Shown: positions 15,602 to 41,104 of the stretch, one piece after another | Layout: every line of letters begins with the position of its first letter | Numbering within the stretch: the first letter of the stretch is position 1 | Origin: a virus | Length of the DNA: 50,609 nt | IMG/VR virus record: IMGVR_UViG_3300026551_000001 | Location: 1-50,609 of that record | Strand: one strand, 5' to 3' | The notes under the pieces: model-generated | Seen by the model: the letters and a program-made list of their open reading frames with translations, nothing else | The model's database searches: none | What the model was told of the DNA's origin: nothing | Program-made: the position numbers and the translations under genes

Positions 15602-15945
15602 AAACCTAATAACCAATCTTCTGGAACATTACCGATGGCATATCTGAATCCATTCTTTATAGCCCATTTAATCTGTTTCTCTTTATATTCATAAAAGACT
15701 ATTCTCAGATCTATATTAGGATGCTGTCTCTTAACTGCTAACAGTTTGCATTTATCCTCTGGTCTTAGATAGCCTTTATATTCAATGTATATCTTTCCTA
15801 AAGGGGTATATAACTTAAAGTCTATAAGGTAGTGTCGAGCTAAGACATAAGGAATCTTTTCAGTTTCGTATTCAAATATAATCTTAGCTCGACGTAACTG
15901 ATTGGCTATAGATTCTTCTGATTTATTTCTAGTTCTTTTAGATAT
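15598..15945 (-). CDS. Endonuclease I (T7 gp3-like Holliday junction resolvase), non-AUG start
   Basis: About 115 aa. The product matches T7 gp3 along its length: KSEESIANQLRRAKIIFEYE, IPYVLARHYLIDFKL, IYIEYKG and KRQHPNIDLRIVFYE. The catalytic set corresponds to the first Glu of SEES, Asp of IDF, and Glu and Lys of IEYKG, all present. The enzyme cuts branched DNA before packaging and degrades host DNA. The frame has no methionine and no GTG or TTG; after an in-frame TGA the only near-cognate starts are AUA at 15945 (within the last codons of the upstream gene) and TTA at 15951. AUA is therefore proposed. The stop overlaps the next start (ATGA). The enzyme call is strong; the start is an inference. 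Confidence 0.82.
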   Translation of the reverse strand: MSKRTRNKSEESIANQLRRAKIIFEYETEKIPYVLARHYLIDFKLYTPLGKIYIEYKGYLRPEDKCKLLAVKRQHPNIDLRIVFYEYKEKQIKWAIKNGFRYAIGNVPEDWLLGL

Positions 15946-16117: not shown

Positions 16118-16280
16118 CTTGTTTCTCATCTTCATCATTTAAATATTTACAATCTCTAATAGGTTTCTCACATTCGCACCAACCGTTTAATAGTTTACAG
16201 TCAGTCGGACTGTTATTATTATGTGGTTGAAACAAGTAATCAGTGTATGACTTGTCCAGCTCTATTGATCTCGATGACAT
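16110..16280 (-). CDS. Small Cys-containing protein, 56 aa
   Basis: 56 aa, ATG 16280 with AAAGGA six bases upstream, inside the 3' end of the exonuclease gene (41-bp overlap). The second half has spaced cysteines (TDCKLLNGWCECEKPIRDCKY) that could bind a metal, and the tail is very acidic (LNDEDEKQDV). The strong ribosome binding site and the ATGTCTGA overlap with the next gene support it as real. Function is unknown. Confidence 0.6.
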   Translation of the reverse strand: MSSRSIELDKSYTDYLFQPHNNNSPTDCKLLNGWCECEKPIRDCKYLNDEDEKQDV

Positions 16281-17097
16281 CAGGTTTCCTTTCTACGTGG
16301 GTAAGGTACTTAGGTCCATCGGAGTATAGAAAAGTTCTGAGACCAGGGAAACAAGTGTTCTTGTAGGCACTGTAGCTTGCTTTGGTATCAAGACCGATAT
16401 TCCCAGATCTACCTTCTGGTACTGTTTTACAGGTACATCTCGGAGCTTGAATAGAGTTTGCATATGATTTATATAATCTAATTCTCTCTTTGATGAACTC
16501 TTTTCGTAATGTATGTTCATATAATAACATATGTCCTAGTTGTTTGTCAATGATTAATAAGCATGCTTTATCTTTTACCAGTACCAAATCGTCGTTAATA
16601 CTAGCGCCCATATAAGCGTCAAGTTGAGATAGATAGCCCCAATCGTCAAGCGTTGTTTGATCTTTCCTTTTGAATTTATCCATCCCACGGCTAGAGGAAG
16701 ATTTAACATCAACAATGTAGCCGTCGATAATGCAGTCTCTATGACCGCGGATACCATCGAGAACAAGTTCATCCTGCTCTCCCGTAACTGTATGTCCTGA
16801 AGCCTTGGCAAGAGCTATAGCTTGAGCCTCTATTATATGACCAAAGGAATATTTGAACTCTGCCCATGGTGGTAGAGGCTCTGCTAACTCTGGTGTATGT
16901 ATCGAATGCCATAAAGCTTTAGGACAGACAGGCCCTAGTTTAGACATTCTTAAAGAAGGTTTATATGTATAGTTATATTGAGATTGTAATCTTTTGGTTA
17001 TGTTATTAGACAAATCCAGGGCTAGCTCATCAGTGAACCAGCCTCTGGTTGTCAATAGATATTGTATATCGGTAACCAGAGTATCGATTGTTTTTAT
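16240..17097 (-). CDS. PD-(D/E)XK exonuclease (gp6-position), probable AUA start
   Basis: 285 aa if begun at AUA 17097. The nuclease core is clear: SLRMSKLGPVCPKALW, FKYSFGHIIEAQAIALAKASGH, then GHRDCIIDGYIVDVKSSSS, in which an Asp and the D-x-K of VDVKS fit the PD-(D/E)XK catalytic set, followed by YLSQLDAYMG. This is the RecB/Cas4-like phage exonuclease type that processes DNA ends and supplies nucleotides. No ATG, GTG or TTG lies between the stop of the upstream gene and the core. The open frame continues to an ATG at 17211, but that would overlap the upstream membrane-protein gene by 118 bp. AUA overlapping the upstream stop as ATAA, eight bases after AAAGGA, is preferred. Confidence 0.78.
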   Translation of the reverse strand: MKTIDTLVTDIQYLLTTRGWFTDELALDLSNNITKRLQSQYNYTYKPSLRMSKLGPVCPKALWHSIHTPELAEPLPPWAEFKYSFGHIIEAQAIALAKASGHTVTGEQDELVLDGIRGHRDCIIDGYIVDVKSSSSRGMDKFKRKDQTTLDDWGYLSQLDAYMGASINDDLVLVKDKACLLIIDKQLGHMLLYEHTLRKEFIKERIRLYKSYANSIQAPRCTCKTVPEGRSGNIGLDTKASYSAYKNTCFPGLRTFLYSDGPKYLTHVERKPDVIEINRAGQVIH

Positions 17098-17351
17098 GGT
17101 ATCATTCCTTTTACTTGATGTGCAAGTTGTAAGTATAAGATTAGTTGTCCAAAACCTACGATTGGAGCGAATGCAGCCATTGTTACAAATGTCTGTGCTA
17201 TCTCCAACCATTTATCCTTCTTCTTAGGTGGTTCTGGTTTCTTGGCAGAGTCTTTGATTTCCTTTTCAACAGTCTTCCAAAAGTCTATTGTTTCTTTCAT
17301 CTGTTGAAGAGGGCTTTGTTGTGGACCGAAAGGACTTCCGTATCCATACAT
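17094..17351 (-). CDS. Small membrane-anchored protein, 85 aa
   Basis: 85 aa from ATG 17351, which has GGAGG six bases upstream; the longer open frame to 17411 runs through the G6/C6 hairpin and is rejected. Layout: a Gly/Pro/Gln-rich N-terminus (MYGYGSPFGPQQSP), a charged helix, a Pro/Lys linker (KKPEPPKKKDKW), then a hydrophobic C-terminal half (TFVTMAAFAPIVGFGQLILYLQLA) that could form one or two membrane segments. It lies just 3' of the structured region and is probably translationally coupled to the exonuclease. Function is unknown. Confidence 0.7.
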   Translation of the reverse strand: MYGYGSPFGPQQSPLQQMKETIDFWKTVEKEIKDSAKKPEPPKKKDKWLEIAQTFVTMAAFAPIVGFGQLILYLQLAHQVKGMIP

Positions 17352-17391
17352 TGTAACCTCCATTCTAAATGGATTAAATATATTTTCTAAC

Positions 17392-17409
17392 GGGGGGATT
17401 TGTCCCCCC
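17392..17409. other. G6/C6 hairpin flanking the structured region
   Basis: GGGGGG, a six-base loop ATTTGT, then CCCCCC. It is a very stable hairpin on either strand. Neither side has a U-tract (the - strand continues GTTAGAAAATATA), so it is not a normal intrinsic terminator. It lies between the RNA-like region and the GGAGG-led membrane-protein gene and may be a processing or boundary element. Confidence 0.7.
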
Positions 17410-18444
17410 AAACTTAAGGTGGTTGTTTCATTTGTCCAGAGTGCACTAACATAAACATGTTACTACACCTCCATTAGTTAAAGTCTCGGACATGAGACTT
17501 GGGAGTCTCTCGATGGTTGACTGCCATTGAGACTCTGACTCTTAAGATCTCTACATCGAGAGGTCTGACGTGTCTGTTCCAGGTTTACTCCCACTGAGTA
17601 GTGTTTTAATGGGCGTTCCGGCTAGACATTGGCTAGTTCCCGGTTATACCAGTGTACTGGACACTGCGTCTCTTTAGATCTTTCGTCTGTTCAGCACAGA
17701 CCGGCGATCCTGTAGAGTATTCGATACTGAGACATCAACCTGAGGAACTTTTGAACCAATGGCTAATGGGACCACGGTGTCCAACAGTCTAAGATTTCAA
17801 CTCTTCAGAAGAGTGTCTACTTAGTTAATGATGCTACTGCTCAGCCTTTTCAGATCATATCCTTGTTGAGTCTACCACAGGTTGTTCGGTCTTACAACAT
17901 ATATAGGTTGCACCCTATATGCATCCGATCACATGGCACTCGCTCTATACCAATTCCGAGTTCGACTCTTATTTAGAGTCCTCATGAGCGTACCGTTGCT
18001 TTTCTGCCACTGTACCAGATCAAGGCTTAGATCCTACTTGTCCCTATGACTAGATCGTACTTGGAGTGACCTACTACACAATAGATCAGGATACTAATCA
18101 TAGGTCCTGCTTATGCTTCTCTAGCTGTTAGCTAGTTGACCACAGGTACACCACCATCCTTTGCCGTCCCTATGCCTTAAGGGTTGGACTCTATCAGGCT
18201 TTATTCCAACAGGACTAAGCTGACTGATCTCGTCTGTCACCGGAGGATAGATCTAAGTACCGGTTAAGTCCTACTCTCCGATATTTATAGCCTCCATGTC
18301 GGAGATAGCACGGGCCTATGCAGCGCTCTCATTCACTATGCTGTCCAAGTGACTAGTACGTTACTCATCCCAAACGAAGATGCCTTCCGTACATCTTACA
18401 CATAGGAGCGCTTACGAGAGGTAGGTCATCACTCCTACGTTAGT
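17410..18444 (+). ncRNA. Candidate ~1.03-kb structured RNA with no ORF
   Basis: No reading frame of 60 codons or more exists here on either strand, although the rest of the genome is densely coding. Two 60-base stretches I counted (17581-17640 and 18121-18180) are each 50% G+C, clearly above neighbouring genes. Perfect hairpins follow one another: 17481-17500 (7 bp), 17545-17566 (8), 17650-17666 (6), 17685-17701 (6), 17716-17728 (5), 17800-17814 (6, extended by 17789/17824), 17901-17920 (7), 17964-17980 (6, inside 17941/17990), 18121-18135 (6), 18275-18305 (10), 18322-18328/18406-18412 (7) and 18421-18438 (5). Three stems (17503-17535, 17545-17566, 18275-18305) hold a G-U pair in + reading that would be an A-C mismatch in - reading, hinting at + strand RNA; the flanking genes are on -. 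No terminator or clear promoter is seen. Strand is therefore uncertain. Confidence 0.6.
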
Positions 18445-18470
18445 TTAACCGTGTTCGAAGTCACGGTTAA
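18445..18470. other. 9-bp hairpin over a stop codon at the RNA-region border
   Basis: TTAACCGTG, an eight-base loop, then CACGGTTAA. The stem includes the TAA of the 116 aa gene. There is no U-run on either side. Together with the G6/C6 hairpin at 17392 it brackets the 1-kb structured region, so it may be a processing border. Confidence 0.6.
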
Positions 18471-18795
18471 TAGTGGATGATTCTCCACTACTCTCGGTTC
18501 TGAATTCTTTCCCAATTAAATCATCTTTGGGACCTTCTGCTGGCCATTCTCTGCCAGTATTGTTCTGAGCTCGTTCGACTGCGGGTCGAATAGTAATTGG
18601 AGGAGAAGCTCGTTCTACTACTTCAATTACCTGACAGACGAATACTCTTGTAATGGTATTATCACTATTTAACTGTTTAGCAGCGTATCCATGAGCATCT
18701 ACTAATGTTGTCTTACAATTAGTAGGAATATTTTTAGGAAAGTCTTTATCCTGTATTGCTTTGAAAGCAACCGTTGCATAAAATTTCTCGTTCAT
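18445..18795 (-). CDS. Unknown early protein, 116 aa
   Basis: 116 aa, ATG 18795 with GGGAG upstream. The N-terminal half is beta-rich (EKFYATVAFKAI, ITRVFVCQVIEVVERA) and the C-terminal half is polar and probably disordered (Glu/Ser/Gly/Asn). No family is recognised. Its last codons and stop form the left arm of a 9-bp hairpin (18445-18470) that borders the structured region. Confidence 0.65.
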   Translation of the reverse strand: MNEKFYATVAFKAIQDKDFPKNIPTNCKTTLVDAHGYAAKQLNSDNTITRVFVCQVIEVVERASPPITIRPAVERAQNNTGREWPAEGPKDDLIGKEFRTESSGESSTINRDFEHG

Positions 18796-19114: not shown

Positions 19115-19155
19115 AGGAATAGGGAACTCCCACGGAGATAAGAGTTCCCTTTCCT
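19115..19155. other. 14-bp intergenic hairpin
   Basis: AGGAA(T)AGGGAACTC pairs with GAGTTCCCTTTCCT across a 12-base loop, with one bulged T at 19120. It fills the gap between the 92 aa gene and the 58 aa gene. No downstream U-run is seen in - reading, so RNase processing is more likely than termination. Confidence 0.6.
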
Positions 19156-22126: not shown

Positions 22127-22151
22127 TAAGTATCTTAATGTATTTCATCAG

Positions 22152-22316
22152 TCATCTTCCATCTTTAAATACTTTTACAGGAAAGTGATGTTTATTTGAC
22201 TCAAGTCTTTGTTGCCGTCTTAAATACCTATACCAATCATCAATCTTAAATAATTCTTCTGTAAATTCTTTTTGAAGGTCTTCTTTAAGTTTCTTAGGGT
22301 TTTGTATTTTAGACAT
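22152..22316 (-). CDS. Small charged protein upstream of polymerase
   Basis: 54 aa. Its ATG at 22316 overlaps the stop of the preceding gene (ATGTCTAA). It is highly charged and helical (KIQNPKKLKEDLQKEFTEEL, DDWYRYLRRQQRLESNKHH). No family is recognised. It ends 26 bases before the polymerase start. Confidence 0.6.
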   Translation of the reverse strand: MSKIQNPKKLKEDLQKEFTEELFKIDDWYRYLRRQQRLESNKHHFPVKVFKDGR

Positions 22317-22470
22317 ACTGCACCTTTAGTTTGTTATAGTAAGCTTCTTCTTTATCTATAGCAGACTTAAATTTATAAGAATCTCTGTTCTTCATCCACT
22401 TAACATCACTAAGTAATTGTCTCATAGTATACCAATCATTTAAATTAATAGGTCCGATAATGTTACTCAT
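22309..22470 (-). CDS. Small unknown protein, 53 aa
   Basis: 53 aa from ATG 22470, overlapping the upstream stop. It is polar and helical (NDWYTMRQLLSDVKWMKNRD, AIDKEEAYYNKLKV). It shares a DDWY/NDWY element with the next small gene, which may hint at common ancestry or the same contact surface. No family is recognised. Confidence 0.6.
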   Translation of the reverse strand: MSNIIGPINLNDWYTMRQLLSDVKWMKNRDSYKFKSAIDKEEAYYNKLKVQYV

Positions 22471-23263: not shown

Positions 23264-23977
23264 TTACAGTTTCCAATCTATAGGCTCTAACTTATCTTTA
23301 GATAAAAATGAATTAACTCTGCTGAACATCCTGCTACCAGAGAATGGATGTTCTCCTGCACAGAAACCTCTAGGACTCGGATGACTCACTTCGATTAAGT
23401 CTGAGTACTTCTCGTCCACATATTCTTTCAATTCTCGCGCAATACTTCCGCATAGAACGAAGCAGATGCCTTTTTTGTTTAGTCGTGAAACGATCTCGAC
23501 TGTAAGTGACCGCCATTGAGTCCAATGTAGATGTGAGAGTGACAAGAATTGTAGACAAGTCGGTATCGTGTTCCACAGTAAGACTCCTTGTTCAGCCCAT
23601 GGTTCTAAGTTACCAGACTTAGGAAAGATAGATCTCTTACCTTCTTTATCAAACCATTCGTAATGTAAGTCATTATGTAACTCTCTGAAAATATTAACTA
23701 AGGTAGGAGGGAATGGATATTCCTTACTATTGATACAATCTTTAGGAGTACTAAAGGCTAATCCTGTAGCATATTGAGGATTAGGATAAGGATCTTGTCC
23801 TATTATGGCAACTCTAACTTTATCAAATGGTGTAATGTCAAGGCTAGAAAACAGATCGCTCCTGTTTGGATTAAAGTAATAACGCTGAGACTCAAGATTA
23901 TCCAGTCTGATTTGGACATCTTCCCACTCCTTTGATCTCCAAAAGTCTAGATCTTCCCACGATGTAAAGTCACTCAT
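23264..23977 (-). CDS. ung: Uracil-DNA glycosylase
   Basis: 237 aa, family 1 UDG. The water-activating loop GQDPYP is at residues 60-65 (catalytic Asp62), the uracil-recognition Phe/Asn region follows (LAFSTPKD; LWNTIPTCL), and the second catalytic motif HPSP has His199. The segment between (LSLSHLHWTQW) diverges from the usual LTVRAG..SHxxxGW pattern. The enzyme removes uracil from DNA. It overlaps the primase-helicase stop by four bases, so it is made with the replisome. This implies that the phage does not use uracil-DNA and keeps it out during replication. Confidence 0.93.
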   Translation of the reverse strand: MSDFTSWEDLDFWRSKEWEDVQIRLDNLESQRYYFNPNRSDLFSSLDITPFDKVRVAIIGQDPYPNPQYATGLAFSTPKDCINSKEYPFPPTLVNIFRELHNDLHYEWFDKEGKRSIFPKSGNLEPWAEQGVLLWNTIPTCLQFLSLSHLHWTQWRSLTVEIVSRLNKKGICFVLCGSIARELKEYVDEKYSDLIEVSHPSPRGFCAGEHPFSGSRMFSRVNSFLSKDKLEPIDWKL

Positions 23978-28376: not shown

Positions 28377-28462
28377 TGGTGCTCACAGCCAGACTCGAAC
28401 TGGCACGGATATTCTCCATCAGATTTTAAGTCTGATGCGTCTACCTATTTCGCCATGTGAGC
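28377..28462 (-). tRNA. tRNA-Leu (anticodon UAA)
   Basis: Read on the - strand: acceptor stem GCTCACA / TGTGAGC (7 bp), D arm GCG...CGC with AGG in the loop, anticodon stem TCAGA / TCTGA with loop CTTAAAA (anticodon TAA), a 14-nt class II variable arm with GGA/TCC, T arm GCCAG-TTCGAGT-CTGGC, discriminator A, and an encoded CCA. It reads UUA, which is very common in the late genes, so it probably supplements the host pool. It is flanked by strong hairpins in the same transcript. Confidence 0.95.
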
Positions 28463-32162: not shown

Positions 32163-32190
32163 ATTATAACATAACTAATAGTTGAGTCAA
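32163..32190 (-). promoter_or_regulatory. Main early promoter, leftward
   Basis: On the - strand TTGACT (32190-32185), a 16-bp spacer and perfect TATAAT (32168-32163), followed by the first early gene. The -35 lies in a palindrome AGTCAAG-GT-CTTGACT (32185-32200), which could be an operator. It is divergent from the promoter at 32242. Confidence 0.85.
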
Positions 32191-32241
32191 GGTCTTGACT
32201 GGGCTATCTTAACTTTTATTGCATTATATGTAAAATAAAGC

Positions 32242-32269
32242 TTGACAAGCTCTATTTTATGTGTATAAT
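32242..32269 (+). promoter_or_regulatory. Rightward early promoter P1, full consensus
   Basis: TTGACA (32242-32247), a 16-bp spacer, TATAAT (32264-32269): both hexamers are perfect. The -35 lies in a perfect palindrome AGCTTG-A-CAAGCT (32239-32251). It drives the unit ending at the terminator 34404-34440. Confidence 0.9.
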
Positions 32270-32294
32270 AAGGAGACCTCCGCCAGAGATATCC

Positions 32295-32510
32295 TACATA
32301 TAGTATTACGTCTTATAGTTAACCGAAGGTTAGTTCTTACGTAATACATATAGTATAGTCTGACCATAGCGTACGAACTGATGCGACCTATCACGTTAGT
32401 GATTGCGCGTAGCGTCCTATTATAGGACTAGCGTAGTCCTATTTAATAGGATTCAACCGTAGATTGAATAAACAATAATATACAATTGTTCACGGTTTGT
32501 TTATAACCGC
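32295..32510 (+). ncRNA. Strongly folded leader of the rightward early unit
   Basis: No gene is seen from P1 to about 32630. Six hairpins follow one another: GTATTACGT / ACGTAATAC (32303-32347, with TAACC-GAA-GGTTA inside), ATCAC-GTTA-GTGAT (32390-32403), CCTATTA+TAGGACTA-GCG-TAGTCCTA+TAATAGG (32416-32450, 15 bp with a TT bulge), ATTCAA / TTGAAT (32451-32469), AACAAT / ATTGTT (32471-32490) and CGGTT / AACCG (32493-32509). TACATATAGTAT is repeated at 32295 and 32345. It may be a stable leader, a riboregulator or a stand-alone RNA. Confidence 0.5.
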
Positions 32511-32603
32511 GTTATGAACGTATAGAGAACATGGAATGTATCGCTTATGTGTGACAATTCAGCACACTATGCTAAATCCTTGATAGATAAGGACTATTCA
32601 GAC

Positions 32604-34234: not shown

Positions 34235-34399
34235 ATGAGAGTGAATATCAATGGCTCTCATGTAGTGGTTTGTATGTCCGTCTATGATTTGCATATCATC
34301 TGTGATGCTTTGCAAAAGGGATGCGCATACAAATCGGACAAGGAACCACGTATTGAGTTGAGAGATAAAATACTCAGTGCGATACAAGATACCAAATAA
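34235..34399 (+). CDS. Small protein after the 460 aa gene, 54 aa
   Basis: 54 aa from ATG 34235, seven bases after the previous stop, with TAGGTG upstream. The sequence MRVNINGSHVVVCMSVYDLH ... LRDKILSAIQDTK looks like a small alpha/beta protein. It ends five bases before the terminator stem. Unknown. Confidence 0.65.
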   Translation: MRVNINGSHVVVCMSVYDLHIICDALQKGCAYKSDKEPRIELRDKILSAIQDTK

Positions 34400-34403
34400 A
34401 CTA

Positions 34404-34440
34404 ATAGCCCTAGGCTTAACAGCTTAGGGCTATTTTTATG
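34404..34440 (+). terminator. Rho-independent terminator of the rightward early unit
   Basis: ATAGCCCTAGGC, loop TTAACA, GCTTAGGGCTAT (12 bp with one G-T), then TTTTTAT. Classical intrinsic terminator. Confidence 0.93.
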
Positions 34441-34832
34441 TTTATCGTAGTATACATTAGGATATTACGCGTATTACTTTAGTTACAATACTCTTAATCT
34501 ATGACATTAAGATACTAATGTATTCATTGTACTAAAAGTATTTCTATAATACTCAACTAATAGTTATAGATACTAGTATAGTATTATATAGATACTTACG
34601 TTATATTACTTAGAGTATTACGCTAGAAAAGAGCCTTAAGAGGTATCCTACCATAATCCTATTATAATCCTCTCGTAATCCTATAAATAATCCTATTAGA
34701 ACCCTCCATAGGGGGTCGTAGGGGGTCAAGGCAGCAACGAATTACACCTAAAATATATCTGACAATATTTTTTACATATAGGAAGCCCGTACAGAAGACT
34801 TTTTATAGGGTGGTACTAAGGTAGCGGGCATG
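34441..34832. other. AT-rich spacer with phased repeats (candidate origin)
   Basis: About 390 bases without a gene. The left part is very AT-rich, with recurring TATTAC motifs (34461-34479, 34601-34621). Then four TAATCCTAT-type repeats start at 34654, 34665, 34676 and 34688 (the second is TAATCCTCT), spaced 11, 11 and 12 bp. Then TAGGGGGTC occurs twice, at 34709 and 34719, spaced 10 bp. Spacing near one helical turn suggests a protein binding along one face, as at iteron origins or regulatory arrays. Confidence 0.5.
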
Positions 34833-40758: not shown

Positions 40759-40862
40759 GTAAATATGCACAAAAGATTGGTAGACTAGGAGGCAGACCTA
40801 AGAAGGAAAACCAGGCAAGCATGGCTACAGCTGGACTAAAAACCAGGCAAGCATCACGATAA
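40737..40862 (+). CDS. Small basic protein, 41 aa
   Basis: 41 aa, starting inside the previous gene's 3' end and ending in the next start (TAATG). It is strongly basic, with KYAQKIGRLGGRPKKENQAS and ATAGLKTRQASR. GRPKK is AT-hook-like. It echoes the basic tail of the preceding protein. Confidence 0.55.
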   Translation: MAVPAKVSKYAQKIGRLGGRPKKENQASMATAGLKTRQASR

Positions 40863-40969
40863 TGGCTAAAAGAGTTGAAGACTTCTTATTCGGTCTATTA
40901 TTTGGAATGGGCTTCGCCATTGCTAACAATGTATTAAACTTTATAGGACAATTCCTACATGGACACTAG
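40862..40969 (+). CDS. Small membrane peptide, 35 aa
   Basis: 35 aa: MAKRVEDFLFGLLFGMGFAI followed by ANNVLNFIGQFL. Hydrophobic, and should form one membrane helix with a positive N-terminus. Tightly packed (TAATG upstream, next ATG directly after the stop). Unknown. Confidence 0.55.
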   Translation: MAKRVEDFLFGLLFGMGFAIANNVLNFIGQFLHGH

Positions 40970-41104
40970 ATGCCAGTAGGTTACGAGAAAATAAGAGATG
41001 CTTTTAAACGTAAAGGTATGTCTCTAAAGGCTGCTAAAACTAAAGCAGCTAAAATATGGAATTCAAAACATAAAGGCTCTCAAGCCGTAGGAAGAGGAAA
41101 ATAA
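40970..41104 (+). CDS. Small Lys/Ala-rich protein, 44 aa
   Basis: 44 aa: GYEKIRDAFKRKGMSLKAAK then TKAAKIWNSKHKG. Very basic and helical. Phages and gene-transfer agents often encode similar short Lys-rich proteins near structural genes. The pattern suggests nucleic-acid binding. Confidence 0.6.
   Translation: MPVGYEKIRDAFKRKGMSLKAAKTKAAKIWNSKHKGSQAVGRGK

Follow-up and report, generated by a model that had tools for sequence, protein, structure and literature searches.

Evidence for a large structured RNA of a putative new family in the replication operon of uncultured phages

The IMG/VR virus record IMGVR_UViG_3300026551_000001, analysed here over its entire length of 50,609 bases (hereafter the window), encodes a phage DNA polymerase, a primase/helicase, a Gp2.5-like single-stranded DNA-binding protein (SSB) and a Cas4-domain exonuclease, in addition to a terminase, a head-tail adaptor and a major head protein. 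On the minus strand, inside the replication operon, with the DNA polymerase and Gp2.5-like SSB genes upstream and the Cas4-domain exonuclease gene downstream, lies a region of about 1 kb which a first-pass annotation had singled out as free of open reading frames (ORFs) and which, judging from sequence comparison, is almost certainly the gene of a structured RNA (17,352-18,444; Table 1). Both the ORF-free region and its location in the operon are real. Positions 17,412-18,444 hold no start-to-stop ORF of at least 60 amino acids on either strand, the longest having 55, and the plus strand has one stop-to-stop frame of 69 codons. At 1,033 bp it exceeds every other ORF-free stretch of the window, the next seven measuring 321-445 bp (other gaps, of 320-445 bp, lie at 15617-15937, 22127-22466, 32186-32571, 34388-34832 and 40759-41103), and its G+C content is 45.7% against 30-45% for most 500-base segments genome-wide. 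The noncoding part extends to about 17,352, the start of a small membrane-protein gene; the provisional bounds given for the RNA gene run from the stop codon of the upstream 116-amino-acid (aa) gene to that start codon.

Table 1. Positions of the predicted RNA gene, its conserved elements and the adjoining genes in the window.
Feature	Position	Strand	Remarks
Predicted large noncoding RNA gene	17352..18444	-	operon sense, ~1.09 kb; ORF-free in the window and four full-length-aligned homologues
Hairpin H1	18275..18305	-	stem UCUCCGA/UCGGAGA (18305-18299 with 18281-18275); loop GGAGGCUAWAA (18295-18285) conserved family-wide
Hairpin H2	18221..18239	-	UGAC-AGACGAGAUCA-GUCA here; UGGC/GCCA in other phages
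Hairpin UAUAGG-GUGCAA-CCUAUA	17902..17919	-	also in group 2; GUGMAA counterpart lies immediately 5' of the T-arm in relatives
Hairpin GUUGU-AAGACCGA-ACAAC	17881..17898	-	stem invariant in five close homologues; apparently replaces the T-arm in the window's group
3'-end motif CACCUUAAG	17413..17421	-	CCUUAAG shared with relatives
G6/C6 hairpin, 3' boundary, GGGGGGACAAAUCCCCCC	17392..17409	-	no U-tract after it; pairs kept in 5/5 close homologues; one GC to CG change
116-aa protein, function unassigned	18445..18795	-	adjoins the RNA upstream; 49-73% identical in L030-L033
Small basic protein, C-terminal transmembrane segment, candidate RNA partner	17094..17351	-	immediately downstream of the RNA
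Cas4-domain exonuclease	16240..17097	-	phrog_1990, E 1.6e-19

The absence of 60-aa ORFs is weak evidence by itself, as it recurs in 85 of 300 dinucleotide-preserving shuffles, and single-sequence folding is only moderately better than that of shuffled sequences (z of -2.9 for the minus and -2.6 for the plus strand, 20 shuffles per strand); it is the homologues that settle the question of an RNA gene. Searching with the flanking proteins yielded four contigs (L030-L033) that keep the gene order of the window and are 75-80% identical to it in nucleotides over the region. In all five close sequences the sense ORFs reach at most 46 aa, and 72 of the 91 gap runs in their alignment have lengths not divisible by three. 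A decayed or recoded protein gene would explain the length, which is like that of a normal gene, and the antisense frames of 68-99 aa seen in some homologues. However, these frames shift from homologue to homologue and are broken by frameshifts in others, no homologue has a conserved frame, indels are mostly not multiples of three and the helices carry compensatory changes, so that the region can scarcely be a decayed gene.

Folding of the five close sequences (alignment A1) with RNAalifold gave 282 consensus pairs, with 94.3% of cells able to pair, and a consensus energy of -228 kcal/mol against -136 ± 10 for column-shuffled alignments. Pairs changed on both sides number 46, compared with 21.5 ± 3.2 after shuffling and 4-11 when partners are slid, although these double changes are not independent events, since the five sequences share a common ancestry. 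The G6/C6 hairpin proposed as a border of the region is also real, its pairing columns being conserved in homologues with one compensated pair, while the end of the upstream gene extends into the 9-bp hairpin at 18,445. With covarying pairs present and intact coding frames wanting among the homologues, the suggestion of a new, large and highly structured phage RNA has gained support.

More distant relatives were gathered through alignment of Cas4 proteins, the Cas4-domain exonuclease serving as anchor. About 76 further loci with a related Cas4-type exonuclease were retrieved, nearly all of which have an ORF-poor, operon-strand interval of 1.0-2.2 kb upstream of Cas4. Some form alignable subgroups, for example L006/L007/L013 (~1.57 kb) and L008/L009, and the subgroups are linked to the window by the short motifs GGAGGCUAAAA, UCCGGUGRCAGACGA, GACAAGUAGGAU and GGGUGCAACC. 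The first of these is the loop of hairpin H1, where it is enclosed by a stem of varying sequence. Over 22 distinct sequences the H1 pairs sum to 102, compared with 64.9 ± 5.7 when the arms are re-dealt (0 of 2000 as high), and double changes occur at all seven stem pairs. Hairpin H2 has the consensus UGRC-AGACGWGAUCA-GYCA across relatives, with a compensated A-U to G-C change at its middle pair (double change in 6 of the 13 sequences of A4 and 10 in A5). A covariance model of H1/H2 picked up further members, absent from its training set, at the expected position on the operon strand, those with E < 0.01 including L039, L045, L053, L081, L083, L086 and L105; 10 of the 11 core-model pairs show double changes among 37 distinct sequences. 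At the other end of the RNA, 30 of 77 loci have CCTTAAG between positions -900 and -200 relative to Cas4, against an expectation of ~0.06 per 700 nt. The pattern TCCGGTGRCAGACGA was rejected as a sole family marker, being too short, and most of the 95 contigs that contain it look like chance.

The region had no blastn match among 50,697 named phage records, and in phiM6, CRP-13 and T5S1, the named phages whose Cas4 gene is related, the same place is densely coding and the RNA is missing. No Cas4 relative, and hence no host or prophage context, was found in the genome-contig collection. Scanning of the window region and relatives against 4227 Rfam families (cmscan) gave no match at the gathering threshold, the OLE model included, and relaxed thresholds (E<=0.5-1) returned nothing more than isolated weak matches to unrelated families. 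The first-pass annotation had entertained membership in GOLLD or ROOL; besides these empty scans, direct searches of 13 records with GOLLD (RF02032) and ROOL (RF03087) found nothing, though without a positive control, as no control genome holding either RNA could be found, and this assignment is not supported. From this comparison, which covered the motifs in Rfam, the family is very probably absent from that database. The window RNA would be the founding member of a new family that a broad lineage of uncultured ~50-kb phages shares.

A recurrent element of the intervals is a hairpin resembling the T-arm of tRNA, with a 5-bp stem and a UUCRANY loop, present in 1-4 copies in 59 of 75 relatives. 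Its density is 6.1 per 10 kb in the intervals versus 0.09-0.19 elsewhere. The T-arm signature is well kept (C56 in 93, the G53-C61 pair in 98 and Y60 in 89 of 104 hairpins, with G52-C62 retained too), whereas the outer stem pairs vary. Additionally, a GUGMAA/UGNAA hairpin stands immediately 5' of 13 of 92 T-arms (shuffled mean 0.5, maximum 3). These are not parts of tRNAs: acceptor-stem partners are no more frequent than chance (51 observed, 53.5 shuffled), no complete tRNA or tmRNA cloverleaf was found, and ARAGORN found no functional tRNA in the loci of 60 relatives. Its only call there was an undefined tRNA-??? with the four-base anticodon atgt (L082, 3453-3548, plus strand), which lies inside the RNA interval and may represent a tRNA-like domain of the giant RNA. 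The window itself has a single tRNA, a tRNA-Leu (anticodon taa; 28377-28462, minus strand), ~10 kb from the RNA region.

These hairpins also bear on the strand. The first-pass annotation had placed the RNA antisense to the operon, which is not supported: in the intervals of the relatives the operon strand carries 91 T-arm hairpins and the opposite one none, the consensus energy on the opposite strand is only -194 kcal/mol, and the covariance-model matches agree with both. From these sequence-based indications, the RNA runs in the operon sense, that is, on the minus strand of the window. The same asymmetry speaks to the suggestion of an element that works as DNA, for example an origin of replication or a site of recombination, with hairpins acting in single-stranded DNA. 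Its position among replication genes and its dense hairpins would suit such an element, but one-stranded T-arms, a strand-biased consensus fold and conserved unpaired loops on freely varying stems, which are typical of RNA, make it very improbable.

Immediately downstream of the RNA, the window encodes a small lysine- and arginine-rich protein with a C-terminal transmembrane segment. A comparable ORF, basic in its N-terminal part and hydrophobic in its C-terminal segment, stands between RNA and Cas4 in 73 of 77 loci versus 29 of 170 control places, a descriptive figure because the calling cut-offs were chosen after a first look at the data. The architecture of this protein family upstream of Cas4 is conserved across the lineage, its sequence hardly so. 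Neither the membrane protein nor the 116-aa protein upstream of the RNA matched Pfam or PHROG. Further genes of the replication operon include one for a uracil-DNA glycosylase superfamily protein (23264-23977, minus strand; PF03167, E 3.4e-9). Consensus promoters are no more frequent in the region than in shuffles; terminator-like sites are (4 against a shuffle mean of 1.4), yet none lies at the RNA's end on the operon strand. A terminator-like hairpin with a 13-bp stem (AGGGAACTC...GAGTTCCCT; 19121-19150, minus strand) is found upstream of the 116-aa gene.

This arrangement raises the possibility that the RNA, rather than being an independent molecule, is a very long leader acting in cis or a regulatory element within the operon, governing how the membrane-protein and Cas4 genes downstream are translated or processed. 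The RNA invariably adjoins these genes, upstream and on the same strand, and its 3' CCUUAAG motif and G6/C6 hairpin immediately precede the ribosome-binding site. Nonetheless, an RNA of 1.0-2.2 kb that carries many conserved apical loops and T-arms is far beyond known leaders in size, and many motifs lie near the 5' end of the RNA, ~900 nt away from the gene; we consider a leader unlikely.

The reading that we favour, and hold to be probable, is a large ornate phage RNA of a new family that acts as a structural RNA or ribonucleoprotein (RNP) scaffold. Noncoding homologues, covarying helices, the operon strand in relatives, family motifs, T-arms in most relatives and constant neighbours are established by the comparisons above; the structural or scaffold role is what we infer. 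An RNA of ~1.1 kb (1.0-2.2 kb in relatives) would be transcribed along with the replication operon and fold into dozens of helices bearing conserved apical loops. The T-arm hairpins and conserved loops would be docking modules, either through tertiary or intermolecular T-loop contacts or as mimics for host proteins that bind T-arms, for example TruB, TrmA or RNase P. We lean slightly toward T-arms that serve tertiary or assembly contacts, bait for tRNA-binding proteins being a less probable function. The lysine- and arginine-rich protein may plausibly bind the RNA and tether it to the membrane, although we would not put this at an even chance, and the complete membrane-tethered scaffold mechanism is more tentative still.

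A related explanation is that the RNA is chiefly a decoy, whose T-arm copies bind either host enzymes that recognise tRNA (TruB, TrmA and RNase P) or defence nucleases directed at tRNA, and so recruit them as chaperones or titrate them. Isolated T-arm hairpins are substrates of TruB and TrmA. The full T-arm identity kept in the family (UUCRANY, G53-C61 and C56) goes beyond the generic need of a T-loop, and the 1-4 copies in most relatives come without an acceptor stem. On the other hand, the canonical T-arm is absent from the window and L031, as from 16 of 75 relatives, and binding is purely putative; a decoy therefore seems rather unlikely, if a shade less so than a leader.

Several points have to be set against the scaffold reading, in addition to the common ancestry of the close sequences and the late choice of cut-offs given above. 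For sequence homology with the most distant groups, the window group depends on short motifs together with the H1/H2 model, and a clear H1/H2 match is wanting in many relatives. A G-U test of strand on helices predicted for both strands was uninformative (14 G-U versus 13 A-C cells). The window RNA is without a canonical T-arm, and the T-arm-bearing insert of L030, L032 and L033 is absent from it and from L031, so that arguments from T-arms hold for the family and not strictly for the window copy. This copy has lost its T-arm or never had one, since its GUGMAA-type hairpin precedes a different conserved hairpin, whose role as a replacement was deduced by comparing positions with the GUGMAA-T-arm arrangement in relatives. 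The membrane protein may also be a mere co-transcribed neighbour.

Overall, giant ornate RNA classes are, to our knowledge, very few, and those of phages are without an assigned function. The present RNA would add one more class, among the longest (up to ~2 kb), widely distributed and clearly covarying, in which a constant operon context points to a possible protein partner and the T-arm mimics within the RNA offer a testable link to tRNA biology. That it is a multivalent array of hairpins mimicking the T-arm of tRNA, which a basic membrane protein of its own would tether to the membrane, and without known counterpart as a class, is a doubtful proposal at present. If true, the array would capture host tRNA-handling proteins or assemble by T-loop contacts, reorganising the infected cell.

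In its length of hundreds of nucleotides, lack of coding, covarying multi-helix fold and occurrence in several phages, the RNA resembles the large ornate noncoding RNAs already described in phages. GOLLD is a phage and prophage RNA of at least 800 nt with an ornate fold, tRNA association and no assigned function (PMC12286853). Both are large and ornate with a connection to tRNA, but our RNA has T-arm hairpins rather than whole tRNAs, sits in a replication operon rather than a tRNA island, and showed no tRNA-gene association by ARAGORN in the 60 relatives' loci and the window. ROOL, likewise a large ornate phage-encoded RNA without assigned function, forms an RNA nanocage (PMC12286853); our RNA differs in its neighbours and in its 1.0-2.2 kb, compared with 574 positions in the ROOL model. 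Abundant RNAs from ORF-less phage regions include the ~800-nt noncoding RNA of ICP1 (PMC7567579) and lnc001/lnc002 of Kayvirus (PMC9241854), to which the present long RNA gene is likened by description only, as they belong to other phages and another genome location. The 5-bp stem, UUCRANY loop, G53-C61 pair and C56 are those of tRNA T-arm/T-loop modules, whereas in contrast to tRNAs the T-arms are isolated from acceptor, D or anticodon arms. Finally, OLE is a large ornate RNA whose membrane-located complex includes the membrane protein OapA (PMC12286853, PMC12265935). OLE is bacterial and ~600 nt long while our RNA is phage-borne, and the membrane protein encoded next to our RNA is unmatched in Pfam and PHROG; the parallel is drawn because this small basic protein is a putative partner of the RNA.
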